The notes beneath the pieces were generated by a model. It was not told the origin of the DNA. It made no database searches and saw only the letters and a list, made by a program, of their open reading frames with translations. A DNA stretch of 64,000 nucleotides, taken from NCBI RefSeq assembly GCF_900107645.1, contig NZ_FNQN01000009.1:62001-126000 (forward strand), given 5' to 3'. The position numbers and the translations under genes were made by a program. Origin of the DNA: Desulfuromusa kysingii. Its GTDB lineage: Bacteria; Desulfobacterota; Desulfuromonadia; Desulfuromonadales; Geopsychrobacteraceae. How positions within the stretch are numbered: the first letter of the stretch is position 1; every line of letters begins with the position of its first letter. Positions 7,309-54,662 of this stretch are shown one piece after another.

Positions 7309-10001
7309 TTACTGCAAAAGAAGGGGCCATCCAAGAAGTGTTCCCGCCACATATCCTTGACGGCGCTCGTGATTATGACGCTTGCCGGGAGTCTCTTCTG
7401 GATGCAGCGCGCCTGTTTTTGGATGCGCATCTGCAACGCATTCACCAACTAAATGATCAGGGCGCTTCAGGACGTGACGTTGTCCGTGAATTAACCTTCG
7501 TCTTTGATCAATTCAATAGCAGCCTATATAAGGCCGTCACTGTTGATTTGAGTGCGGAAGCCCTGGCGGGCTGTGCCCTGATCGCCTTGGGCGGTTATGG
7601 CCGGGCAGAAATGAACCCCCGTTCAGACCTTGATCTGATGTTTTTTTATGAACCATCCGGGCAGGAAGCCGCGAGGATTATTTCTGACCGGATGCTCTAT
7701 CTGCTCTGGGATTTACGTTTGGACGTCGGATACAGTGTTCGCTCGAGCGAATCCTGCTTAGAGGAGTCGCATGACAGTACCGTCCGGTCCGCTTTGTTGG
7801 ATGCGCGGTTAATTTCTGGAAACGCGAAAGTATATGCGGCCTTTCGGTCGACAGTGAGTCGACAGATGTTGAGTCGGGAACCACAAAAGTATATTAAACT
7901 GAAGTTGGATGAACGCATTGAGCGGAAGAAGAAATATGGTTCATCGGTCTATGTGCTTGAACCTAACCTGAAAGAGGGGGAGGGCGGTCTCAGAGAGTTA
8001 CAGGAGGCACTGTGGATTGCGCGGGTCAAGTTTAAATCCAGCGGGATCAAAGAGTTGCTTACCAAAGGGGTGATTACCGAAAAAGAGCTTGAGGAGTACT
8101 CTCAGGCGCTTGATTATCTATGGAAAATCCGCAATTTTCTCCACTTTAAGGGGCAGCGCAAAAGTGATCAGTTGACCTTTGATTTACAACCACAGTTGGC
8201 AGTAGCGTTTGGCTTTAAAGATAACCGCCGCGCTTCAGCAGTCGAACAGTTTATGCAGGCCTATTACGCTCATGCGATTAAAGTAGAACATCTGTCGACC
8301 CAGCTAATCCTCAACGCGACTCAAGCTCCAGCGACTCCACGGCGCGGGGTATTTAAGTTTCTTGCCAAGCGGAATCTCGAAGATGGTTTTTATATTATCC
8401 GCGGTGAACTGCGTGCCAAAGTCGATCAACAGTTACTTGATGATCCGGCGCTGATGATGGTTGCTTTTGAACTGGCACAAAAGCATGAAGTGTCGATATG
8501 TTTTGAGCTGAAACAGTTGATCAGAGATAACGCTCATCTGATTCATGATAAAATTCGTCGTTCCAGCCGGATCAACCGTTCCTTTATGAATATTTTACGT
8601 CACCCTAAAGGGATTAGTCATATCTTGCGAAAAATGCATCATTTACAATTTCTGAATGCATTTATCCCTGAATATAAAAAAATTTATTGTCGTGTTCAGT
8701 TCGACCTGTATCATATCTATACGGTTGATACCCACACCTTGTTTGCTATTGAACAGATAGAAAAGCTCTGGGCCGGGGATTATGCCAACGAGCAGCCTTT
8801 GTTGACCGAGGTTGCCAATAATATTGAAAAGCGCGAGTTATTACTGCTGGCCATTTTATTCCATGATATCGGTAAGGGGAGCGGTAAAGATCACAGTATT
8901 CGCGGTGCTGAAATGATTCCAACGATAGCTCGCCGACTGCGTTTAAACCGTGAAGATAGTCAACGATTGCAGTTCCTTGTGTTGCATCACCTGAAGATGG
9001 CTCATATCTCACAACGACGAGATTTGCAAGATTTCAAGATGATAGCTCAATTCTCTCAGCTCATGGGGATGAGCGAAACCTTGCGCATGCTATACCTTCT
9101 GACTTTTGCCGATATTAAGGCTGTTGGCCCCGATGTCTGGACTGAATGGAAGGGAAGTCTGCTCCGTGAACTCTATGAAAAGGCTTATGATACCTTAGAG
9201 AAAAATGAATTTTATCAAGAGAAACGGTCTCAAAAAGTACGCAACAGAAAACGCCACATCCGCCAGGCGTTATTGGAAGATTATACGGAAAGCAAAGTCA
9301 ATAGAATCTTAAAAAGTCTCAACACTCGTTATTTGATGAGTTATCGTTCTGAAGAGATTATTCCTCACTTGCGTTTGGCCCTCAGCCGTGGCAAAAAAAC
9401 GCTGGTCATGCAGGTTGATCATAAACGTGAGCTAAATTATACCGAATTGACTCTAGCTACGATTGACAGCCCAGGGCTTTTTTCACAAATCGCCGGGGTT
9501 TTGGCCGCCCATTCGATCAATATTCTTGGCGCACAAATTCACACCAGAAAAACCGGGACCGTGTTAGATATTTTGCAAGTCAATAGTGCGATTGGTGATG
9601 TTGTAGATAAGCCCCAAAAATGGGCTCGCGTGGAGACTGATTTAAGTAAAGTGATCTCCGGACAAATTTTTGTTGAAGAATTGTTTGATACAAGTCAGCA
9701 ACCTGCTTATCTCAATTCAACTACTGGGCGCTCTCAGCGTGCAAACAAGGTTGAAATTGATAATGAAGTTTCTGACCGCTATACTGTCGTCGACATCTTT
9801 GCTCATGACAAGGTTGGCCTTCTTTATGACATTACCCGGACCCTAAATGAGTTAGGGCTGTATATCGCGGTCTCCAAGATATCAACCAAGGTTGATCAAG
9901 CGGCTGACGTTTTTTATGTCTGTGATATTTTTGGGCAGAAGGTCACTGATCCGATAAAATTGGCAGAGATTCGTTCGACAATGTTAGCCGGCCTTGAGTA
10001 G
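7305..10001 (+). CDS. glnD: [Protein-PII] uridylyltransferase / uridylyl-removing enzyme
   Basis: Bifunctional nitrogen sensor that adds or removes UMP on PII according to glutamine level. The 898 residues show, in order, a nucleotidyltransferase domain (GGYGRAEMNPRSDLDLMF near 95, with the G-x-S/D-x-D metal motif), the helical GlnD/GlnE linker, an HD hydrolase domain (LFHDIGKG near 517) and two C-terminal ACT domains (starting near 715 and 825) that bind glutamine. All catalytic elements look intact. The ATG overlaps the amidase stop by four bases. No glnB or glnK is present in this window. Confidence 0.96.
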   Translation: MITAKEGAIQEVFPPHILDGARDYDACRESLLDAARLFLDAHLQRIHQLNDQGASGRDVVRELTFVFDQFNSSLYKAVTVDLSAEALAGCALIALGGYGRAEMNPRSDLDLMFFYEPSGQEAARIISDRMLYLLWDLRLDVGYSVRSSESCLEESHDSTVRSALLDARLISGNAKVYAAFRSTVSRQMLSREPQKYIKLKLDERIERKKKYGSSVYVLEPNLKEGEGGLRELQEALWIARVKFKSSGIKELLTKGVITEKELEEYSQALDYLWKIRNFLHFKGQRKSDQLTFDLQPQLAVAFGFKDNRRASAVEQFMQAYYAHAIKVEHLSTQLILNATQAPATPRRGVFKFLAKRNLEDGFYIIRGELRAKVDQQLLDDPALMMVAFELAQKHEVSICFELKQLIRDNAHLIHDKIRRSSRINRSFMNILRHPKGISHILRKMHHLQFLNAFIPEYKKIYCRVQFDLYHIYTVDTHTLFAIEQIEKLWAGDYANEQPLLTEVANNIEKRELLLLAILFHDIGKGSGKDHSIRGAEMIPTIARRLRLNREDSQRLQFLVLHHLKMAHISQRRDLQDFKMIAQFSQLMGMSETLRMLYLLTFADIKAVGPDVWTEWKGSLLRELYEKAYDTLEKNEFYQEKRSQKVRNRKRHIRQALLEDYTESKVNRILKSLNTRYLMSYRSEEIIPHLRLALSRGKKTLVMQVDHKRELNYTELTLATIDSPGLFSQIAGVLAAHSINILGAQIHTRKTGTVLDILQVNSAIGDVVDKPQKWARVETDLSKVISGQIFVEELFDTSQQPAYLNSTTGRSQRANKVEIDNEVSDRYTVVDIFAHDKVGLLYDITRTLNELGLYIAVSKISTKVDQAADVFYVCDIFGQKVTDPIKLAEIRSTMLAGLE

Positions 10002-10013
10002 ACGTTGGGGAAA

Positions 10014-10904
10014 ATGGATCAATACCTTGATTATTATTTTAACTTTTTAGCTGTAGAAAAAGGCCTCTCGGATAATACTTTAAGTGCTTATAGTCGGGAT
10101 TTGACCTCCTACTCTGCGTATCTGAGTCAAAAGGAGCAGGTGACCGATCCTGACAATATCACGCAATCGATGTTACTTGGTTATTTAACGGCGTTAAAAA
10201 GTAATGGTCATTCACCGCGGAGTCGGGCTCGTGTTCTCAGCTCTTTACGCGGGTTTCATCGGTTTTTACTCCGGGAACAATACGCAAACCACGACCCTTC
10301 CATCCTGATCGAGTCGCCGCGTACCTTGTCATCGCTACCAAGACTGCTTTCGCAAAAAGAGGTCGAACGCCTGTTGCTGGCACCGACTGGTGACAGTCCG
10401 ATTGCGGTTCGTGACCGGGCAATGCTTGAAGTGTTGTATGCCACCGGGATGCGCGTTTCGGAGTTGATCGGATTGCGTCTTGGCGATCTGAAACTTGATA
10501 TTGGCTGTCTCAATGCGTTTGGCAAAGGCTCCAAGCAGAGATTAATCCCCCTGGGAGAGGATGCCCTTGATGTTCTTCAAGAATACTTGCAGAATGGACG
10601 CCAGAAGTTGTTAAAAAAAGGATTAAGTGATGAGGTTTTTCTCAATGTGCGTGGCAAAAAACTCAGTCGGCAGGGGGTTTGGAAGAACCTGCATGCTTAT
10701 GCAATAAAAGCTGGAATCAAACAGAAAGTTTATCCGCATATGTTACGGCATTCATTTGCAACCCATTTGTTGGAAAATGGTGCGGATCTGCGTTCGGTAC
10801 AAACGATGCTGGGACATGTTGATATTTCTACAACCCAGATTTACACCCACGTTATTCAATCGCGGTTAAAGAAAATTCATCAACAATATCATCCGCGTGG
10901 CTAA
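10014..10904 (+). CDS. xerD: Tyrosine recombinase XerD (chromosome dimer resolution)
   Basis: Site-specific recombinase that acts with XerC at dif to resolve chromosome dimers. The 296-residue protein has the N-terminal SAM-like core-binding domain (about 1-85) and a catalytic domain with the conserved residues: Arg in ATGMRVSEL, Lys in GKGSKQR, His/Arg in HMLRHSFATH, His in LGHVDISTTQ and the nucleophile Tyr in IYTHV. TTG at 10005 extends the frame by three codons, but ATG at 10014 gives the usual MDQYLDYY-type start. XerD rather than XerC is judged from overall style. There are no flanking mobile features, so a housekeeping role is likely. Confidence 0.9.
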   Translation: MDQYLDYYFNFLAVEKGLSDNTLSAYSRDLTSYSAYLSQKEQVTDPDNITQSMLLGYLTALKSNGHSPRSRARVLSSLRGFHRFLLREQYANHDPSILIESPRTLSSLPRLLSQKEVERLLLAPTGDSPIAVRDRAMLEVLYATGMRVSELIGLRLGDLKLDIGCLNAFGKGSKQRLIPLGEDALDVLQEYLQNGRQKLLKKGLSDEVFLNVRGKKLSRQGVWKNLHAYAIKAGIKQKVYPHMLRHSFATHLLENGADLRSVQTMLGHVDISTTQIYTHVIQSRLKKIHQQYHPRG

Positions 10905-10924
10905 CTGCTAAGGTAGAGGAAAAG

Positions 10925-12133
10925 ATGAAATATATTATTTTGCTTGGTGACGGAATGGCGGATGAACCCATTGCGGAACTGGGAGGAAAAACCCCGCTGG
11001 AAGTTGCACATACACCCAATATGGATCGTTTGGCACAAACCGGAATAATCGGCTTGGCGGCAACGGTACCGGAAGGTTATCCCCCGGGAAGTGATGTCGC
11101 AAATCTTTCGGTTTTTGGTTACGACCCCGCTGATTGTTACACTGGGCGATCACCTCTGGAAGCCGCAAGTATGGGAGTTGATCTGGGTCCTGACGACGTT
11201 GCTTTTCGTCTGAATTTTGTCTGGCTGGAAGCCCATTACGGTAAGCTCTATATGGGGGATTTTTCTGCTGGTCATATCTCTACAGATGAAGCCAGCGTGT
11301 TGATAGCCACGCTTCAGGATGAGTTAGGCGGGGATCAGTTCAACTTTTATCCAGGGGTTTCCTATCGTCACCTCATGGTCTGGAAGAATGGCAAGGACGC
11401 CCTTAGTTTTACCCCGCCCCATGATATTTCAACGTACAGCATTGAAGATCACCTGCCACAGGGCGATGGTGCTGATGTTCTCCAGGATTTGACCAATTCA
11501 GCGCAAATGTTGTTGAATATCCATCCGGTGAACAACCAGCGGATTGCTGAAAATAAACTCCCGGCAAATTCGGTGTGGTTCTGGGGGCATGGACGTAAGC
11601 CGGTGATGGAGACTTACCAGCAACGTTACGGTTTGACTGGATCGGTGATTTCGGCCGTCGATCTGATCAAGGGGATTGGTATCAATGCCGGGTTGGAGAT
11701 CATTGAGGTTCCGGGCGCGACAGGTTACCTCGATACTAACTACCGTGGTAAAGGCGAATACGCGGTTGCGGCTCTTAAAGACAAAGATTTTGTTTACGTC
11801 CATGTCGAGGCCCCTGACGAAGCGGGTCACGGTGGATTATTGCAGGAGAAAATCAAGGCGATAGAGAGTTTTGACCGTGATGTTGTCGGGACGGTTCTTG
11901 ACAACATCGACGCCATTGGTGATTGCCGTATCCTGATTGCCCCTGACCATCCGACTCCCGTAGAAAAAAGGACGCACACTTCTGACCCGGTTCCTTATAT
12001 CCTGTTTGACTCCCGTCAGTCGTTGGCTTCGCAGGCAACCGCATATTCGGAATCTGAAGCTAAGCGTTGTGGTGGGATTATCCCCGGCCATCAACTTCTC
12101 TCACTGTTGATGGCTGACCGTGAATCAGCATGA
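10925..12133 (+). CDS. apgM: ApgM-family metalloenzyme: cofactor-independent phosphoglycerate mutase or proposed homoserine kinase
   Basis: 402-residue member of the alkaline-phosphatase superfamily branch that includes archaeal 2,3-BPG-independent phosphoglycerate mutase. Metal and catalytic motifs are visible: LGDGMAD (7-13, Asp ligand), PPGSDVANLS with candidate nucleophile S56, HVEAPDEAGHGG and PDHPTPVEKRTHTSDPVPY near the C-terminus. In many Deltaproteobacteria this subgroup has been proposed to serve as homoserine kinase, because those genomes lack ThrB. A homoserine dehydrogenase gene lies at 48.2 kb here. Sequence alone cannot choose between the two activities. It overlaps the next gene by 14 bases if that gene starts at GTG 12120. 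Confidence 0.85.
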   Translation: MKYIILLGDGMADEPIAELGGKTPLEVAHTPNMDRLAQTGIIGLAATVPEGYPPGSDVANLSVFGYDPADCYTGRSPLEAASMGVDLGPDDVAFRLNFVWLEAHYGKLYMGDFSAGHISTDEASVLIATLQDELGGDQFNFYPGVSYRHLMVWKNGKDALSFTPPHDISTYSIEDHLPQGDGADVLQDLTNSAQMLLNIHPVNNQRIAENKLPANSVWFWGHGRKPVMETYQQRYGLTGSVISAVDLIKGIGINAGLEIIEVPGATGYLDTNYRGKGEYAVAALKDKDFVYVHVEAPDEAGHGGLLQEKIKAIESFDRDVVGTVLDNIDAIGDCRILIAPDHPTPVEKRTHTSDPVPYILFDSRQSLASQATAYSESEAKRCGGIIPGHQLLSLLMADRESA

Positions 12134-12911
12134 GGCTTTAGAAGCTAAAGATATGACGCCGTTACAACTGAGTGTTGTCTTGGTCGAGCCTCAAGGTGCG
12201 CTAAATATCGGTTCTGCTTGTCGGGCGATGCTTAATTTTGGTTGTTCCAGCCTGCGCCTGGTCAACCCTCAAGTGGATCATCTCTCCCGTGATGCACGAC
12301 TGATGGCGGTCAAGGCTGCGTCTGTCCTCGAAAGCGCCCGTGTCTTTGAAAGCTTAGAAGATGCGCTGTCTGATACTGTTTTGAGTTTTGGAACAACGCG
12401 TCGTTTCGGACGTTATCGAGAAGGATTACTGCATCCTGATGAGGCGGCAGACCGTTTACTGTCGGTAGCACAAAAAGATTCCGTCGCCTTGGTCTTTGGT
12501 CGTGAAGACAGAGGGTTGTTTACCTCAGAGTTGGATCTCTGTCAGCATTTTATCACGATTCCGACCAATGAGAATTTACCGTCGATGAATCTGGCGCAAG
12601 CTGTCTCCATTTGTCTGTATGAAGTGAGCAGAGCCAAAGGGCGCTCTGCAGGTCTGAGTTATGGTCGCAAAGGATTGGCAAATAATGCCGCCTTAGAATC
12701 AATGTATCAACATATGCGTCAGACATTACTTGATATTGGTTACCTCGATCCACAAAATCCCGACCATATATTGCGCAGCTTTCGCCGTATCTTGAGTCGT
12801 TCCGGGTTGAATGACCGTGAAGTTCGAATTCTTCGTGGTCTTTTCAATCAGATCGATATTTATTCGGGACGCAAGCTGTCACGACGTTCAACAGATGGCG
12901 ATCATGAGTAA
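12120..12911 (+). CDS. trmJ: TrmJ-like tRNA 2'-O-methyltransferase (SPOUT family)
   Basis: SAM-dependent ribose methylase of the TrmH/SpoU superfamily. It most resembles TrmJ, which methylates position 32 of the tRNA anticodon loop. The 263 residues contain the three SPOUT motifs: VLVEPQGALNIGSACRAM (N-terminal), VFGREDRGL and LPSMNLAQAVSICLYE (the knotted SAM site), followed by a C-terminal helical extension. The start is uncertain: GTG at 12120 overlaps apgM by 14 bases, while ATG at 12153 would start directly before the conserved LQLSVVLVEPQ. The substrate assignment to tRNA position 32 is by family. Confidence 0.85.
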   Translation: MNQHEALEAKDMTPLQLSVVLVEPQGALNIGSACRAMLNFGCSSLRLVNPQVDHLSRDARLMAVKAASVLESARVFESLEDALSDTVLSFGTTRRFGRYREGLLHPDEAADRLLSVAQKDSVALVFGREDRGLFTSELDLCQHFITIPTNENLPSMNLAQAVSICLYEVSRAKGRSAGLSYGRKGLANNAALESMYQHMRQTLLDIGYLDPQNPDHILRSFRRILSRSGLNDREVRILRGLFNQIDIYSGRKLSRRSTDGDHE

Positions 12912-13272
12912 AACAAGTAAAAGTTTTCAGCTTGAAAATGGTGTGAGCGTTGAATTTGTTCCTCAGGAGAACCGCTATTTTGGCGATTACCATCGGCTGC
13001 AGATAGATGTCATTGCCAAGATCCCTCTAGACTCAGGTTCATTACCTGCTGATTTAATCGAGGTGGCAGAAAAGTATTCAGGATCTATTAAATATGAAAA
13101 AACCCTGGAACGCATGGGAGTTGCTAGCAATCAACTCGATATCGCAACACAATCAATGATTGATGGTTTCATGCAAACGGTTGGTTGTTATCTCGCAAAC
13201 AAGAGTTTTGCGGAACATTTACTTCGAAAAACATTGACCACGCGCGCACATCGAAACCGTTTCAGCCGGTAA
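12895..13272 (+). CDS. Small unknown protein after trmJ
   Basis: About 125-residue protein with no domain I recognise. It is soluble, has no signal peptide and has a plausible alpha/beta pattern (FQLENGVSVEFVPQ, HRLQIDVIAKIPL, then helical SMIDGFMQTVGCYL). The frame is open further upstream, but the ATG codons at 12895 and 12904 overlap the trmJ end by 17 or 8 bases and avoid an implausible N-terminus, so one of these is the start. It is the last gene before a transcription terminator at 13345, which places it in the apgM-trmJ operon. Function unknown. Confidence 0.7.
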   Translation: MAIMSKTSKSFQLENGVSVEFVPQENRYFGDYHRLQIDVIAKIPLDSGSLPADLIEVAEKYSGSIKYEKTLERMGVASNQLDIATQSMIDGFMQTVGCYLANKSFAEHLLRKTLTTRAHRNRFSR

Positions 13273-13287
13273 TAATTAAAATTCTTC

Positions 13288-13316
13288 TTGATTTAATCCC
13301 GTCAGAGTGTTAAATA
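13288..13316 (+). promoter_or_regulatory. Candidate promoter for the rimP-nusA-infB operon
   Basis: TTGATT (13288-13293), a 17-base spacer and TAAATA (13311-13316). Transcription would start near 13323, upstream of the terminator-like hairpin at 13345, so the hairpin would lie in the operon leader. The match is moderate. Confidence 0.35.
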
Positions 13317-13344
13317 ATAACGGTTTTGATGTTGTTTATTGGAA

Positions 13345-13367
13345 GTGAGCCCCGGCTCACTTTTTTT
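13345..13367 (+). terminator. Terminator or attenuator 17 bases before rimP
   Basis: GTGAGC (13345-13350), loop CCCG, GCTCAC (13355-13360), then seven T residues: a textbook intrinsic terminator. It ends only 17 bases before the rimP GTG, leaving no room for a promoter after it. It therefore either ends the upstream operon while the rimP promoter reads through it, or works as an attenuator for the nusA operon. Confidence 0.85.
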
Positions 13368-13384
13368 ATTATCCAGAGGCGACC

Positions 13385-13864
13385 GTGGCACAACTTTTAG
13401 AAAAAATTGAAGAACTGGTTCTCCCCATCATAGAAGACCTTGGTTGCGAATTGGTTGATATTGAGTATCAACGCGAGGATCGTGGATGGGTTTTGCGGTT
13501 TTTTCTGGACAAAGATGGTGGAATCAATCTTGATGACTGTGCCACTGCCAGTCGTGAGATTAGCTCAATGCTTGACGTTGAAAATGTGATCAGCACAGCG
13601 TATAGTCTGGAAGTTTCGTCCCCGGGGATTGAGCGGCCTTTAAAGAAACCTGAGGATTTTATCCGCTTTACTGGACAACTTGCTAAAATTAAAACCCACG
13701 AAGCCATTGATCCCGATGGTTCAGGTCGAAACAGAAAGACCTTTGTTGGCACCCTGTCGGGTTTTGAGGGTGATGAAGTCCTGTTGTTATTGAAAAAAAA
13801 ACCAGTGGCAGTGCGTATTGCGCTACCACAGATAGATAAAGCAAACTTAAAATTTGAGTTTTGA
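13385..13864 (+). CDS. rimP: Ribosome maturation factor RimP
   Basis: Cytoplasmic factor for late 30S subunit assembly. The 159 residues show the two-domain RimP form: N-terminal alpha/beta domain (LVDIEYQREDRGWVLRFFLDK with DGGINLDDCA) and the SH3-like C-terminal domain starting near SPGIERPLKKPEDF. GTG at 13385 is the start, with an AGAGGC ribosome site seven bases upstream. It is the first gene of the conserved rimP-nusA-ylxR-infB-rbfA-nrnA-truB transcription/translation operon. Confidence 0.95.
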   Translation: MAQLLEKIEELVLPIIEDLGCELVDIEYQREDRGWVLRFFLDKDGGINLDDCATASREISSMLDVENVISTAYSLEVSSPGIERPLKKPEDFIRFTGQLAKIKTHEAIDPDGSGRNRKTFVGTLSGFEGDEVLLLLKKKPVAVRIALPQIDKANLKFEF

Positions 13865-13940
13865 ATCCTGCCATGGGTTCATTGATTATCACTCGTTGAC
13901 ATGGTCTGTCAGCCAAAACTTTTAATAAGGGGTATGCAAG

Positions 13941-15131
13941 ATGGTGGGTAACCTCAATCACATCATCGATCAGGTGGTTAAGGATAAAGGGATCGATCGT
14001 GACGTGCTGGTAGATGCACTTGAGTCTGCGGTCCTGTCTGCAGCCAATAAAAAATTCAGAAATACGCGTGATCTGGAAGCTCACTTCAATGAAGAACTTG
14101 GAGAGGTTGAGGTTTTTGAATTTGTTACTGTCGTTGATGAAGTTGTTGATTCATACAGAGAGATTGATTTGGAAGAGGCACGGGAAGTTGATCCCGATGT
14201 TGAAGTCAACGATTCTTTGGGGATGATGCTCGAGGCGGGTAGCTTCAGCCGCATTGCCGCACAAACGGCAAAGCAGGTTATTATTCAGAAGGTCCGTGAA
14301 GCTGAACGTGAAGGCGTCTATAATGAATTTAAGGACCGTGTTGGTGAGATCGTCAATGGGATCGTGCGTCGCTATGAACGTGGTGATTTGATTATTGATC
14401 TTGGTCGCGCAGAAGCTTTGTTGCCCAATCGGGAGCAGGCCCCGCGTGAAAATTACCGTCAATCAGATCGCGTTCGTGCTTATATCTCTGAAGTTAAGAT
14501 GTCTGCCAAAGGACCGCAAATTATCCTTTCGCGCACGCATCCAGGGTTGTTGATCGCTTTATTTAAATCGGAAGTGCCTGAAGTTTCTGAAGGTATCGTT
14601 GAGATTAAAAATGCTGTCCGTGAGCCGGGAAGTCGAGCTAAAATCGCTGTGACCTCGCATGATATTGATGTTGATCCTGTCGGCGCGTGTGTCGGTATGC
14701 GCGGGTCGCGGGTGCAAAATGTCGTAACCGAGTTGCGTGGTGAAAGAATCGACATTATTCCTTGGACTCCAGACCCTGCAAGGTTTGCTTGTGCGGCCCT
14801 TGCACCTGCAGATGTATCGCGGGTGTATATTGATGAGGACGGCAAGTCCATGGAGATAATCGTTCCTGATGACCAATTATCTTTGGCTATTGGCAAGAAG
14901 GGGCAGAATGTCCGTCTTGCAGCGAAACTGATTGGTTGGAAAATCGATATCAAGAGCGAATCCCGTGCTCAAGAAGAAGAACAGGAAGAGAGTGCTTCTG
15001 AAGGTGCAGAAACTGCAGAAACAGAAACTCCTTCTGAAGTATCGGTTGCCGATGATGCTGCAACAACGGCTATAGATCAACAAGATGATGTTGATGATGA
15101 TGGTGCTGCTGCAGACACAGAGAAGGATTGA
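13941..15131 (+). CDS. nusA: Transcription elongation/termination factor NusA
   Basis: RNA polymerase-associated factor controlling pausing, termination and antitermination. The 396-residue protein has the N-terminal RNAP-binding domain (about 1-130), an S1 domain (about 135-200, [20 protein letters not shown]) and two KH domains ([15 protein letters not shown] and [18 protein letters not shown]). It lacks the acidic repeat domains of E. coli NusA (495 aa) and instead ends in a roughly 50-residue Glu/Asp/Thr/Ala-rich tail, presumably disordered. The start is ATG at 13941 after an AAGGGG-type ribosome site. It may regulate its own operon through the hairpin at 13345. Confidence 0.96.
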
Positions 15132-15142
15132 TTCGCTGACTT

Positions 15143-15739
15143 ATGACTGCTGCTGAAAAAGGGCCGCAACGCACTTGTATCGCTTGCCGTAAGGCCGGTG
15201 ACAAAAAACAATTTGTTCGTTATGTTGTGGCTCCTGATGGTGAAGTTTTGGTTGATTATCGGCAGCGATTACCTGGCCGTGGGGCTTACACTTGTATCTC
15301 ATGGGACTGTTTGCAGACTGCGGTTGCCAGGAATAGTTTTCAGCGTAGTTTTAAGGGGCAGTGTCATGACGTTGACGCAACATCATTGTTGGAGCAATTG
15401 AACGCTGCTGTGGAGCAAAAGATATTTAATCTGATTGGCATGTCACGCAAGTCGAAACAATTTATAGCTGGCAGTAATGCCGTAGTTGATGCGCTTAAAA
15501 AAGGGACATCATTGGCACTTATTGTTATGGCGACAGATATATCGACTTCGATAAAAACGAAAATTGAAACATTGGCAATAAAGAAAAAAATATATACTGC
15601 GCATTTATCTGATAAACAGAAAATAGGGCAGATGTTAGGTAAAGAAGAGCGGAGTGTTATGGCTGTTCAGCCGGGTTTGTTAGCTGATTCGCTGTTGACT
15701 GAATTACATGTGTACAGGCGACTGGTAAGGGAGAATTGA
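15143..15739 (+). CDS. ylxR: YlxR (DUF448) fused to an L7Ae-family RNA-binding domain
   Basis: 198-residue fusion of two domains that are separate proteins (YlxR and YlxQ) in Bacillus. Residues 1-75 are Ylx[27 protein letters not shown] and the pair of Cys clusters. Residues about 95-195 are L7Ae/L30e-like: [17 protein letters not shown], a central beta/alpha core and [12 protein letters not shown]. YlxR (RnpM) is reported to bind and modulate RNase P RNA, while L7Ae-type domains bind kink-turn RNA. The gene sits between nusA and infB as usual, 11 bases after nusA and overlapping the infB ATG by one base. An RNA-binding regulatory role is likely; its target is unknown. Confidence 0.9.
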
Positions 15740-18582
15740 TGGGCAAGGTAAGGGTATACGAACTCGCGAAGAACATGGGTCTGGAAAACAAAGATTTGCT
15801 GGCTAAACTGGAAGAAGCAGGCATTGATGTGGCGTCACATTCAAGTTCTCTGGCTGAGGAAGATCTACGTAAATTTGAAGATTTCGTCAATCCCCCGGTA
15901 CAGAAAATTGAAGAAGCTCGCATAAAACCAGGGATAATACGGCGACGACGGACTGTTGTACGTGAACCTGTTGAGCAGACGCCTGTCGCTGCTGAAGACA
16001 CTGTTACAGTGGCTGCGAATGAAAAGGCCGAACCCTCAGTTACTGCCGAGGTTGACACCCCTGAACCTGAAGAGATTCCCCAACCAGAGGAACAGAAGGT
16101 CACACCGCCTGCAATAGAACCACCTGTGGTTGAATCTGTTGAAGAGGTTGCTTCTCCTGTAGCGACTACTAATGAAGCTCAAGCCGAATCTGAGCCTGAA
16201 ATTAAAGCAGAAGCCGTCACAACGTCAAAGAAAGAAGTGAAAACTGAAGTTAAGGTTGATGCTGATAAACCAAAAGTCTCCGAGAAAAAAGTTGCAGAGA
16301 CGGAAGCTGTAGCAACGGATAAAGGTAAAAAAGAAAAGCCACCCGTTGTTGAGAGAGCTACCGGTGATCGTGCCAAAATTCTTGGACGGGTTGAATTGCC
16401 ACAAACGCCACCCCACGGACAGCGAAAAACCAGAAATTCAGCACGCCCTGCGCGGCAGGATGCACGACCAGCAAGAGCGGGTGAACGACCTGGTGGTCGC
16501 CCGGCTGCTCGGCCTGGAACTGCACCAACAGGAAGAACTCCTGCGCGTCCTGGATCGACTCCAAGCCGTGGAAATAAGAGGGTTGATCCAGCCCCTTTGG
16601 CGCCTTTGGAACAGCCGCTTCCTGAAAAGGAAGGGCGTAATAAAAAGCGTAACAAAGGACGTCGTGGTGATAATAACGACAATCAGGACGGTCGGGTATC
16701 GCGTCGCGGACGGCGGGTCGAAGTTTTCGAACCAGGCCGTGCGGGTCAAAAAAAGAAGCGTGGCGGTAAGAACTCCAAACAGGCGAAACATACTGAGGTA
16801 ACTGTCAGTAAAGCGATTAAGCGGATTGTCAGAATCAGTGATTCAATTACTGTTGGTGAACTGGCAAAGCGGATGGGGGTCAAAGCGAATGAATTGATCG
16901 CTGAATTGATGCGTCAGGGGTCAATGGTGACGATCAATCATCCACTAGACTATGAATCTGCGGCAATCTTAGCGGCTGAATTCAACCATGAAGTTGAAAA
17001 TGTCGCTTTTGATGAAGAGACAATTCTTGAAGTTGAGCCTTCCAAAGAGGCCGAAGATAATGTTGAAGATCTTGAAGTTCGCCCTCCAGTTGTTACCATT
17101 ATGGGGCATGTCGATCATGGTAAAACCAGCCTTCTGGATGCGATTCGTGAAGCGAACGTCACTGAAGGTGAAGCTGGAGGTATAACCCAGCATATTGGTG
17201 CTTATGATGTTGAACTGGATGGCAAAAAGGTGACTTTCCTTGATACTCCGGGACATGAGGCATTTACCGCGATGCGGGCTCGTGGTGCTGGAGTAACCGA
17301 CATTGTTATCTTGGTTGTCGCTGCTGATGATGGGGTGATGCCTCAGACAAAAGAGGCTATCAGTCATTCGAAAGCTGCTGGTGTGCCGATGATTGTTGCT
17401 GTCAATAAAATCGACAAACCGGACGCAAACCCTGAGAAGGTAAAACAAGAACTCACAGAGTTTGAACTTGTTCCAGAAGAGTGGGGCGGCGATACGATCT
17501 TTGTTGAGGTTTCTGCCAAGCAACAGACGAATCTTGATACCTTGCTGGAAATGATTTTGTTGCAAGCAGAAGTTCTGGAGTTAAAGGCTAACCCGAATAA
17601 ACGTGCCAAAGGATCAATTGTTGAGGCACGCCTTGATAAAGGGCGCGGGCCGATAGCGACGGTGTTGGTTCAGGATGGAACCTTAAAAATTGGCGACGCT
17701 ATTGTTGCTGGACTGCATTACGGTCGGGTTCGTTCAATGACCACAGCGACAGGTTCTCAAGTCAAAGAGGCTGGACCATCCTTCCCGGTTGAAGTGACTG
17801 GACTGGGTGGTGTCCCCAATGCCGGTGATACTTTCCATGCCGTTGAAAACGAAAAAGCCGCAAAAGATGTTTCGCATCATCGTCAGTCCAAACAACGTGA
17901 AATTGATCTGTCTCGAAACAGTAAGGTCTCTTTAGATCAACTGTTTGAAAAAATGCAACAAGGTGTTGTTGAGGAGCTTTCAGTTATTGTTAAAGCTGAT
18001 GTACAAGGTTCGTTGGAAGCCGTACGCGATGCTCTGGAAAAACTATCCACGGACGCTTGTCGGTTGAATATAATCCATACTGGCGTGGGTGGTATTTCTG
18101 AAAGTGACATTACTTTGGCGACGGCATCAAATGCAATCGTCCTTGGTTTTAATGTTCGACCTGAGACCAAGGCCAAAGTGTTAGCTGAGGTAGAAAAAGT
18201 CGATATCAGGTTGTATTCAGTGATTTACGACGCTGTTAATGATATTCGTGACGCAATGGAAGGTCTGTTAGCACCGACCTTGAAGGAAAAAGAGTTGGGT
18301 CGTGTTGAGATTCGCGATACTTTCCACGTGTCGCGTGTTGGTACGATTGCTGGCTGTTTTGTTGTTGAAGGGAAAATCATTCGTAATGCTCAAACTCGAC
18401 TGGTCCGCGATAATGTCGTTGTCTGGCAGGGTAAACTCAGTTCATTGAAGCGCTTCAAGGATGATGTTAAAGAAGTCGGCAATGGTTATGAGTGCGGTAT
18501 TGGTTTGGAAAAATACAACGATATAAAAATTGGTGATGTTCTTGAAGTCTTTGAAATCGAAGAAGTTAAGACTTCACTGTAG
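15739..18582 (+). CDS. infB: Translation initiation factor IF-2
   Basis: GTPase that brings fMet-tRNA to the 30S subunit and promotes 50S joining. The 947 residues comprise an IF2_N domain ([20 protein letters not shown]), a long low-complexity Pro/Glu/Val then Arg/Gly/Pro-rich linker (about 60-360), a second IF2_N-like domain, the G domain (GHVDHGKTS near 455, [13 protein letters not shown]) and domains II-IV. The frame can be extended by one TTG codon, but ATG at 15739, sharing one base with the ylxR stop and preceded by AAGGGAG, is the start. The linker's repetitive Arg/Gly/Pro codons create long open shadows in other frames that are not genes. Confidence 0.97.
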
Positions 18583-18621
18583 CCCCGACAATGAATCTTT
18601 ACCCTATGGAGCCGAAGTAAG

Positions 18622-18990
18622 TTGAGTAGTTATCGTCCAGAACGAGTTGGTGAGCAGATCCACAAAGAGGTGACCCGATTGTTGATGTACAACATCAAAG
18701 ATCCCCGTGTGTCTCCAGTAACGTTGACTGGGGTGCAGATGTCACGTGATATTGGTTCTGCTAAGATATATTATACGGTTCAAGGTGATTCTGCTGAACG
18801 TAAAGAGGCAGAAAAAGGGCTTAAAAGCGCATCTCCATATATCCGTAGAGAATTAGGGAAAATTATGAATCTCAGATTTGTCCCTAATCTCTATTTTAAA
18901 TTTGACGAATCTGTCAATTATGGACAAAAGATTGATGCCTTGTTGTATCAGGTACGAGAAGACTTAGATGATCATTCAACAGATAATTGA
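18622..18990 (+). CDS. rbfA: Ribosome-binding factor A
   Basis: Binds 30S precursors near the 5' helix of 16S rRNA and is needed for late maturation and cold adaptation. The 122-residue product has the single KH-like fold pattern: YRPERVGEQIHKEVTRLL at the N-terminus, DPRVSPVTLTGVQMSRD and the C-terminal LRFVPNLYFKFDESV. TTG at 18622 is the only sensible start (MSSYRPERVG), with GGAG about ten bases upstream. Use of TTG may keep its level low. It overlaps nrnA by 23 bases. Confidence 0.94.
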   Translation: MSSYRPERVGEQIHKEVTRLLMYNIKDPRVSPVTLTGVQMSRDIGSAKIYYTVQGDSAERKEAEKGLKSASPYIRRELGKIMNLRFVPNLYFKFDESVNYGQKIDALLYQVREDLDDHSTDN

Positions 18991-19918
18991 AATTATAAAT
19001 ACGAATCAGACATTTTTGGTTGTCGCACATGAAAATCCAGATGGTGACGCGATAGGTTCAACCCTTGGTCTCGCACTGGCTTTACGTGACATGGGTAAAG
19101 AGGTCGTTGCCTATAATGTTAATAGTGTCCCAGCTGTTATGCGTTTTTTACCCGAGTCTGACTTTATATCAAACAGCCTGCCTGAAAACGCTGGTTTCGA
19201 TGTCGCTTTTGTTTTGGATGCTGGTGATCTGGAAAGGACCACATTACCTGTTAAGGATCTATGTCAAACCCTGATTAATATTGATCATCATCCTGATTCT
19301 ACATTTGGTGATCCATGTTATCTTGATACCACTGCCTGTGCGACAGCGGTCTTAATTTACCGCTTGTTGTCAGCTTGTCAGTACCCCATGAGTTTGCCTG
19401 TTGCTAAAGCTCTCTATTTGGGAATCCTATCTGATACCGGCTCTTTCCGTTACTCCAGTGCCAACCAGGAGGCCTTTCTGGTTGCAGGAGAGTTGGTTGG
19501 GCTGGGAGTAGATCCTTGGGAAGTTTCTAGCAACCTCTATGAAAGCCATGCTCCTGAGCGGATGAAATTGCTTGGCATGGTCCTCCCCACTTTACATATT
19601 GCCGCTTCCGGGCGTTATGCTTCCGTTGTCTTGACTCTGGACGCTCTTAAAAAATCTGGTGCCTTGGAGGAACATGCTGACGGGTTTGTGAACTATCCAC
19701 GTTCAATCTCAGGTGTTGAAGTCGCTCTATTTTTTAACCAAATTTCCAGTGACCTCTATAAGATTAGCTTCCGGTCTCGTGGTAACATTGATGTTGGCAG
19801 TCTTGCCCACAAGTTGGGTGGTGGGGGACATCATAACGCTGCTGGTGCCAAACTCAGTGGATCACTGGATGAAGTGAAAACATCAGTATTCACCTTGCTT
19901 GACCAACTTCTCAGTTAA
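18968..19918 (+). CDS. nrnA: Bifunctional oligoribonuclease / pAp phosphatase NrnA (DHH family)
   Basis: Mn-dependent DHH-DHHA1 phosphoesterase that degrades short RNA oligonucleotides and can hydrolyse 3'-phosphoadenosine 5'-phosphate. The 316 residues contain the metal motifs ENPDGDAIGS (motif I), VLDAGD (motif II), NIDHHPDS (the DHH motif) and SDTGSFRYS (motif IV), then the DHHA1 motif GGGGHHNAAG. The start is ATG at 18968 inside the end of rbfA. Placement between rbfA and truB is standard for the group. Confidence 0.94.
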   Translation: MIIQQIIEIINTNQTFLVVAHENPDGDAIGSTLGLALALRDMGKEVVAYNVNSVPAVMRFLPESDFISNSLPENAGFDVAFVLDAGDLERTTLPVKDLCQTLINIDHHPDSTFGDPCYLDTTACATAVLIYRLLSACQYPMSLPVAKALYLGILSDTGSFRYSSANQEAFLVAGELVGLGVDPWEVSSNLYESHAPERMKLLGMVLPTLHIAASGRYASVVLTLDALKKSGALEEHADGFVNYPRSISGVEVALFFNQISSDLYKISFRSRGNIDVGSLAHKLGGGGHHNAAGAKLSGSLDEVKTSVFTLLDQLLS

Positions 19919-19922
19919 TATC

Positions 19923-20828
19923 TTGCACGGACTCCTTCTTATTGATAAAAGCGCGGGGATGACCTCTCACGATGTCGTCAGAAAAGTCAGGCGTATTTTC
20001 AAAACCCGTAAAGTTGGGCATGCTGGAACTCTTGACCCCTTGGCAACGGGTGTTTTACCGGTTGCGATTGGGGATGGAACCAAGATTCTCCAATTCTTGC
20101 TTGCAGAAGATAAGTCCTACCGGGCGACATTTAAATTTGGGTTCACTACGGACACTCTTGATATTGATGGACAAATTCTTTTACAACGGCTTGTCCCTGA
20201 ATTTGACCTCACTGATTTGGAACAAATTTGTGCCGAATTTCGTGGCAATATTGAACAGCTCCCACCGATGTTTTCTGCCCTTAAAAAAGATGGCGTTCCG
20301 CTTTATAAGCTTGCACGCCAAGGAAAGACTGTTGAACGTCAACATCGACAAGTCACGATCAAGCGGCTCGAAATTATCAACTGCAAAGCCCATGAAGTCA
20401 CTATTGAAGTTGATTGTTCGAAGGGGACCTATATTCGTTCTCTTGTTAGCGATATCGGTGAGCGACTCGGGTGTGGTGCCTGTTTGACAGGATTACGCCG
20501 TATCCGCAGCGGTGAATTTGCTATCGATCAATGTCACACTTTGGAAAGTTTGCAACAGTTGGATGACCTTTCGACGTCACTCCTGTCACTTGACGATGCT
20601 TTGGCTTGTTGCCCAGCGGTGCAATTAAATGAACCCGCTGCCGCCGCGTTAAAGTTTGGTATCCCTCCACAGTTAAGTCAGACCCAAGTGGATGCCGAGA
20701 TTGTCGATGGCGATCTGTTGCGTTTACAAGTTGACTCGAAATTAGCTGCCGTCGCGCGCTATGCCCCTTTGCGCAATAAGGAAAAACGCGGCGATTTTGA
20801 ACTGATCAGAGTCTTTGGTAGTCACTGA
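19923..20828 (+). CDS. truB: tRNA pseudouridine-55 synthase
   Basis: Converts U55 in the T loop of tRNAs to pseudouridine. About 301 residues; the catalytic Asp lies in GHAGTLDPLATGVLP, with IDKSAGMTSHDVV at the N-terminus and KGTYIRSLVSDIG in the second half. The C-terminal domain is PUA-like but divergent. No ATG is available. TTG at 19923 gives the standard MHGLLLIDK start and clears the nrnA stop by four bases, while TTG at 19899 would add eight residues and overlap nrnA. Neither has a strong ribosome site, so coupling to nrnA translation is likely. Confidence 0.92.
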   Translation: MHGLLLIDKSAGMTSHDVVRKVRRIFKTRKVGHAGTLDPLATGVLPVAIGDGTKILQFLLAEDKSYRATFKFGFTTDTLDIDGQILLQRLVPEFDLTDLEQICAEFRGNIEQLPPMFSALKKDGVPLYKLARQGKTVERQHRQVTIKRLEIINCKAHEVTIEVDCSKGTYIRSLVSDIGERLGCGACLTGLRRIRSGEFAIDQCHTLESLQQLDDLSTSLLSLDDALACCPAVQLNEPAAAALKFGIPPQLSQTQVDAEIVDGDLLRLQVDSKLAAVARYAPLRNKEKRGDFELIRVFGSH

Positions 20829-54557: not shown

Positions 54558-54630
54558 TCTGCCATCTGGCAGAGCGGTTGTGAACTGTGGGGACAATCTC
54601 CCCCTGCAGATCCGGCCACGGCAGATGCCG
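54558..54630 (+). promoter_or_regulatory. Structured spacer before rplT, candidate L20 control element
   Basis: Three hairpins in a row: TCTGCC/GGCAGA (54558-54573, loop ATCT), a GGGG/CCCC stem (54589-54603) and CGGC/GCCG (54619-54630, loop AGAT). The loop region CATCTG of the first can pair with CAGATG of the third, giving an alternative or pseudoknotted fold. L20 represses rpmI-rplT through such RNA structures in E. coli and Firmicutes; the role here is inferred. Confidence 0.4.
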
Positions 54631-54662
54631 AAAAAACAATCTAATTCGAAGGAGCAAGTGAG

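Follow-up and report, generated by a model that had tools for sequence, protein, structure and literature searches.

We analysed a 64,000-nucleotide stretch of DNA from Desulfuromusa kysingii (Desulfuromonadia; NCBI family Geopsychrobacteraceae) (the window; all coordinates below are positions within it), in which the gene order from position 10005 is a XerD-type recombinase, apgM, trmJ, an ORF of 122 amino acids, rimP, nusA, a protein weakly matching RnpM and L7Ae, infB, rbfA, an NrnA-like protein, and truB. The RimP, RnpM/L7Ae, and NrnA matches fall under the curated cut-offs of their models; among the best 25 profile matches listed for the rimP ORF, nearly all are to RimP models. The genes and leader elements of the rimP locus are as follows:

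12904-13272, + strand: small ORF of 122 amino acids, overlapping the end of trmJ and without a Pfam family
13288-13293, + strand: -35 element TTGATT, read in the sequence (CTTG at 13287-13290)
13308-13316, + strand: extended -10 element TG-T-TAAATA, 17 bases past the -35 (TG at 13308-13309, TAAATA at 13311-13316)
13323, + strand: predicted transcription start, a G, placed from the -10 spacing about 20 bases ahead of the stem
13334-13340, + strand: GTTTATT, in the place of a competing strand (GUUCACU in many relatives)
13344-13367, + strand: intrinsic terminator or attenuator hairpin with a 7-T run, from sequence, scanner, and conservation
13375-13379, + strand: ribosome-binding site AGAGG, assigned by eye, outside the terminator
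13385-13864, + strand: rimP, GTG start; best model 187 bits, under its curated cut-off of 210
13941-15131, + strand: nusA (TIGR01953, 421 bits)
15736-18582, + strand: infB (TIGR00487, 876 bits)

The terminator consists of AGTGAGC (13344-13350), the loop CCCG (13351-13354), GCTCACT (13355-13361), and the T-run (13361-13367), so that the intervening bases 13368-13384 place its end exactly 17 bases ahead of the rimP GTG, the distance given in a preliminary description of this DNA and borne out by direct reading. The same description had put a promoter upstream of the terminator. This promoter, TTGATT-17-TAAATA with an extended -10 TG, conforms to a pattern conserved in relatives (consensus CTTG-N17-TGnTA), and the terminator starts about 27 bases after its -10, which lacks the usual final T. 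The fold of the window leader is better than that of most shuffled sequences (z -2.13; 7 of 200 as good).

Several further features were seen in the window. The single protein encoded between nusA and infB (15143-15739) matches both an RnpM and an L7Ae/YlxQ-type model, in each case with a score under the cut-off. Look-alikes of the 122-amino-acid ORF (12904-13272), recognized by eye from NRYFGD and likewise without a Pfam match, occur in two further genera of this family (L284, L285). An L20-Deltaproteobacteria ribosomal protein leader (RF03126, 50.5 bits) lies at 54576-54654. Inside rimP, TTGAAA-17-TATAGT (13578-13606) is one of the two top promoter-like sites in 10000-20000, a region in which the numbers of such sites are not above chance.

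Conservation of the promoter and the hairpin at rimP

Of the genomes searched, 38 of 44 in the family and 127 of 136 in the order contain a RimP match, as do 265 of 277 in the class sample and 62 of 69 in the phylum sample. We read 130 leaders: those of all 38 family genomes with a rimP match (one of which, G008, has a truncated rimP); 52 drawn from 89 further order genomes that have one, with 43 genera represented by one to three leaders each; 20 from 138 other class genomes, taken among the matches listed and covering 18 genera, none of family f22; and 20 from 59 genomes elsewhere in the phylum, mainly the top-listed ones.

A regular expression for the terminator recognized the hairpin in 37/38 family leaders, 52/52 from the rest of the order, and 20/20 from the rest of the class (109/110 for the class overall), as well as in 18 of the 20 from the rest of the phylum (L265 and L270 gave no match). 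The sole family leader without a match, L098, has a stem mismatch. The promoter CTTG-N17/18-TGnTA precedes the terminator in 37/37 family, 49/52 other order, and 19/20 other class leaders, and thus occurs together with the hairpin in 105 of 109 class leaders versus 6 of 18 in the rest of the phylum. The spacing between -35 and -10 is that of the window in 35/37 family leaders. In an alignment of 30 family leaders, the C-T-T-G of the -35 and T13308, G13309, T13311, and A13312 of the extended -10 are invariant, the predicted start base 13323 is G in 28, and the eight bases AAGTGAGC, GCTC, and seven T are again identical in all 30. A second genome of the window's genus (G005) carries the site at 675-698 of its contig.

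Searching for the exact hairpin pattern yielded 111 sites in 109 of 134 order genomes (G105 contributes two, its site being matched on either strand, and G119 is represented by two contigs), and all 111 lie on the upstream side of a rimP match, 20-216 bases away as counted from the lower coordinate of the site. The pattern read backward, used as a control, gave 0 matches in the 134 genomes. Eighteen order genomes with rimP lack the exact pattern; of 14 that were read, 13 carry a variant hairpin and the other is the mismatched L098. A regulon in which the hairpin is shared by other genes was considered and rejected within the order, given its 111/111 sites at rimP. Outside the clade the pattern is unspecific: among at least 120 contigs that carry it in a named collection, it directly precedes a RimP or NusA match in 31, including three of Mariprofundus type (L124, L128, L154), and lies elsewhere or in an unrecognized context in 89.

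A generic scan of 10000-20000 found 15 promoters versus 13.3 in shuffled sequence and 6 terminators versus 9.5. These totals do not exceed those of the shuffles, and a pattern match alone is therefore no evidence. The scanner lists the terminator ahead of rimP and misses the promoter because its rule requires T at the last -10 position. The weight thus falls on the comparison of the leader across related genomes, a check that the preliminary description had proposed, and throughout the class sample promoter and terminator remain linked to each other and to rimP.

Individual loci showed further peculiarities. The hairpin of L274 (G105) can be read as a terminator on either strand. L073 (G093) has approximately 160 extra bases between terminator and rimP that are absent from the sister genome G094, and the rimP frames of G123:C75 and G097:C63 contain in-frame stops, by error or as pseudogenes. 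In other classes of the phylum (L253, L256, L258, L263, L265, L270, L271), an apparent tRNA 3' end (GCCCGCTC) was seen by look before rimP, a parallel to E. coli, in which metY precedes rimP.

Since the 122-amino-acid ORF stops at 13272, only 15 bases before the -35, and any terminator would halt traffic from upstream, the hairpin might be nothing but the 3' terminator of the trmJ-ORF122 unit, with rimP driven otherwise. We compared upstream contexts by extending 16 loci upstream and scanning ten upstream proteins against Pfam. The upstream neighbor, which in the window is the 122-amino-acid ORF after trmJ, is a U5-methyltransferase in families f3, f7, and f8 and at one f17 locus, and a formate/nitrite transporter in f24; the upstream proteins of f15 and f21 have no Pfam match, and for L278, L279, L281, and L286 no clear upstream gene emerged from the ORF heuristic. 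The leader thus remains constant while upstream genes change between families. Moreover, the conserved promoter is located upstream of the hairpin, and the 17 bases between terminator and rimP start leave no room for another. A mere 3' end is accordingly very unlikely. The conserved promoter and hairpin at rimP, set against differing upstream genes, argue for an attenuator-type leader; the comparison lends good support to the promoter, the terminator, and their linkage to rimP, and with them to the attenuator ahead of rimP-nusA-infB that had been suggested for this locus.

Covariation of the stem and a possible competing hairpin

Counted from the loop, pair 3 of the stem is A-T, G-T, or G-C, with pairing kept; pair 5 is T-A, T-G, or C-G; pair 1 is C-G, T-G, or T-A; and a single C-A mismatch was found among 127 stems. 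Pair 3 is A-T in 85/109 class leaders, including 36/37 family stems, and G-T in 21/52 other order leaders. The G-C form occurs in 1/37 family, 2/20 other class, and 18/18 rest-of-phylum leaders. Because G-C stands at this pair in all 18 stems found elsewhere in the phylum, the difference between GAGC/GCTC and GGGC/GCCC is a pair swap, and by these counts the rest of the phylum has the GGGC/GCCC form described previously and the class a swapped one. Such pair swaps indicate that the terminator hairpin is selected as an RNA structure.

In many class leaders from families other than that of the window, the 5' arm of the terminator can pair with a short strand upstream of it, frequently GUUCACU. 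We took the 22 bases that precede the hairpin, folded them with the 5' arm, and compared the result with 1000 dinucleotide-preserving shuffles of those 22 bases, excluding L098, L265, and L270, which lack a regular-expression match, from the 130 leaders; in the folding of strand sequences per leader, 13 further leaders without a recognized promoter were skipped. The 72 class leaders outside the family had a mean z of -1.95, with 42 at p<=0.05. Related sequences are not independent, so a count per family is fairer: with 23 families each represented by the leader listed first, the mean z was -2.04, and p was <=0.05 for 14 and <=0.1 for 18. For the rest of the phylum (n=18), the mean z was -1.1, with 4 at p<=0.05. 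Control terminators gave a mean z of 0.48 with 1/15 at p<=0.05 in a small sample and with mononucleotide shuffles; this set comprised 15 of 31 terminators found, the 16 with a rimP-like stem being excluded.

These figures, together with the fact that different sequences form the competing hairpin (GUUCACU/AGUGAGC, ACUUUUC/GAAAAGU, and CUUUUCAU/AUGAGAAG), favor a switch of three strands (upstream strand, 5' arm, and 3' arm) in which the upstream strand would act on the 5' arm as an antiterminator, with tuning by NusA or another factor, or by pausing. The distance from GTTCAC to the arm, which is 5-11 in 49/50, also speaks for RNA pairing, being variable unlike that of a fixed DNA operator; a DNA operator formed by the GTTCAC/GTGAGC dyad was disfavored on the same grounds. 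However, the window's own family (n=37) shows nothing above chance, with a mean z of +0.2 and 2 leaders at p<=0.05. In the window itself, GUUUAUU pairs weakly with the 5' arm, at -1.5 kcal/mol, a value equalled or bettered by 11 of 100 shuffles. Families f11 (0/3), f12 (0/2), and f13 (0/1) likewise fail at p<=0.05 (0/6 together), and f7 and f3 reach 1/6 and 5/10. Hairpins of the f3/f7 type cover no more than the outer portion of the terminator arm, the mean pairing of its last six bases being 0.2-0.4 in most, and the terminator is more stable than its competitor (about -10 versus -6 kcal/mol). In addition, GUUCAC hardly varies and hence offers little covariation. As an account of the rimP leader, such a switch appears most improbable.

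For the class as a whole, we entertain a tentative and rather doubtful proposal, namely that the Desulfuromonadia leader is a three-strand switch of about 45 nt from which the window's family lost the antiterminator, leaving a terminator governed by NusA only. Loss rather than gain is inferred from the distribution of the strand, which is also present in other order families and elsewhere in the class, and not from a tree. The A-U pair that replaces G-C in the stem and the GUUCACU strand may have evolved together. If the proposal were true, switched and unswitched forms of one autoregulatory loop would provide a natural comparison.

Proposed control by NusA and comparison with known rimP leaders

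Other kinds of leader control were considered as well. An Rfam scan gave no family at gathering score at the leader, and four weak matches up to E 10 were judged to be chance. A conserved sensor domain, as expected of a riboswitch or ribosomal protein leader, was not found in the approximately 20 bases between start and stem. A helix masking the ribosome-binding site, suggested by the window fold (duplex -10.9 kcal/mol), was rejected as a conserved feature: the leaders' own pairs averaged -6.36 versus -6.18 for swapped pairs in the family (permutation p 0.31, n=36) and -5.59 versus -6.33 in the rest of the order (p 0.996, n=49), and p was 0.33 in the rest of the class (n=20).

We favor, with a probability of about 0.68, a promoter-proximal attenuator of rimP-nusA-infB at which NusA most likely raises termination and thereby limits its own synthesis. 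RNA polymerase would start near 13323 and reach the end of the T-run approximately 45 bases later, where part of the polymerases would stop at the intrinsic terminator, leaving the read-through fraction alone to transcribe the operon. By raising termination at the leader, NusA would restrain its own production, and read-through arriving from the trmJ unit would be stopped by the same terminator. We infer the start site, the partial and regulated termination, and the involvement of NusA, which by analogy with other bacteria is most likely the best candidate controller in Desulfuromusa. Alternatively, promoter and terminator might simply damp the operon, fixing its expression ratio without any regulator, as the missing sensor domain, the approximately 20 bases ahead of the stem, and the lack of an above-chance competing hairpin in the window's family would allow. 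Yet the invariance of AAGTGAGC in 30/30 family leaders goes beyond the needs of pairing alone, and autoregulation has been stated for B. subtilis in the available part of one report (PMC12288461), so that constitutive damping seems rather unlikely.

Attenuation of this operon has precedents, with feedback by NusA stated for B. subtilis and proposed for E. coli and S. agalactiae. An attenuator before rimP-nusA-infB with NusA as the candidate factor is already in print: the accessible text of the 2010 study of Naville and Gautheret names the rimP-leader the most ubiquitous attenuator and describes it as a short terminator 4-130 nt before rimP, with no sensor domain and the signature GGGc...gCCC (PMC2965389). 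The terminator described here lies within that distance. Its stem differs, being GAGC...GCTC through a compensatory pair, and the specificity for rimP holds within the order (111/111) but not outside the clade. The accessible text also reports no visible antiterminator for the general form (PMC2965389), in contrast to the possible one in many class relatives. The Gammaproteobacteria rimP leader of Rfam (RF01770) is alike in operon position, with a terminator before rimP. Its model, which matched E. coli K-12 as a positive control with 102 bits, had no gathering-score match in the window or in 19 relatives scanned and was absent up to E 10. The E. coli leader, unlike that of the window, has a second hairpin with a T-run upstream; terminators t1 and t2 before rimP and regulation by NusA of its own operon are given in the accessible part of PMC6511841. 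In S. agalactiae, transcription of rimP-nusA-infB terminates 31 nt after its start, and NusA feedback is proposed with citation of an E. coli study, as far as the available text goes (PMC4448216). That gbs0413-gbs0418 leader is equally very short and was mapped by RNA-seq, whereas the leader in the window is predicted only (PMC4448216). In B. subtilis, the portion available describes NusA autoregulation in which NusA promotes intrinsic termination within the 5' leader of its operon (PMC12288461). The leader there is 180 nt long (PMC2965389, in part), longer than that of the window, and the NusA experiment comes from B. subtilis only (PMC12288461, in part).

In the open literature on rimP leaders, nusA antiterminators, and Geobacter attenuation, we found neither a Desulfuromonadia leader nor a competing hairpin described. 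Based on these comparisons, the leader is a real and conserved attenuator of a largely known kind with a lineage-specific stem, and a possible competing hairpin is newly seen in its relatives. A little-studied attenuator is thereby extended to a class (109/110 leaders) and tied to one gene, and natural variants with and without the possible competing hairpin offer material for how NusA controls its own operon.
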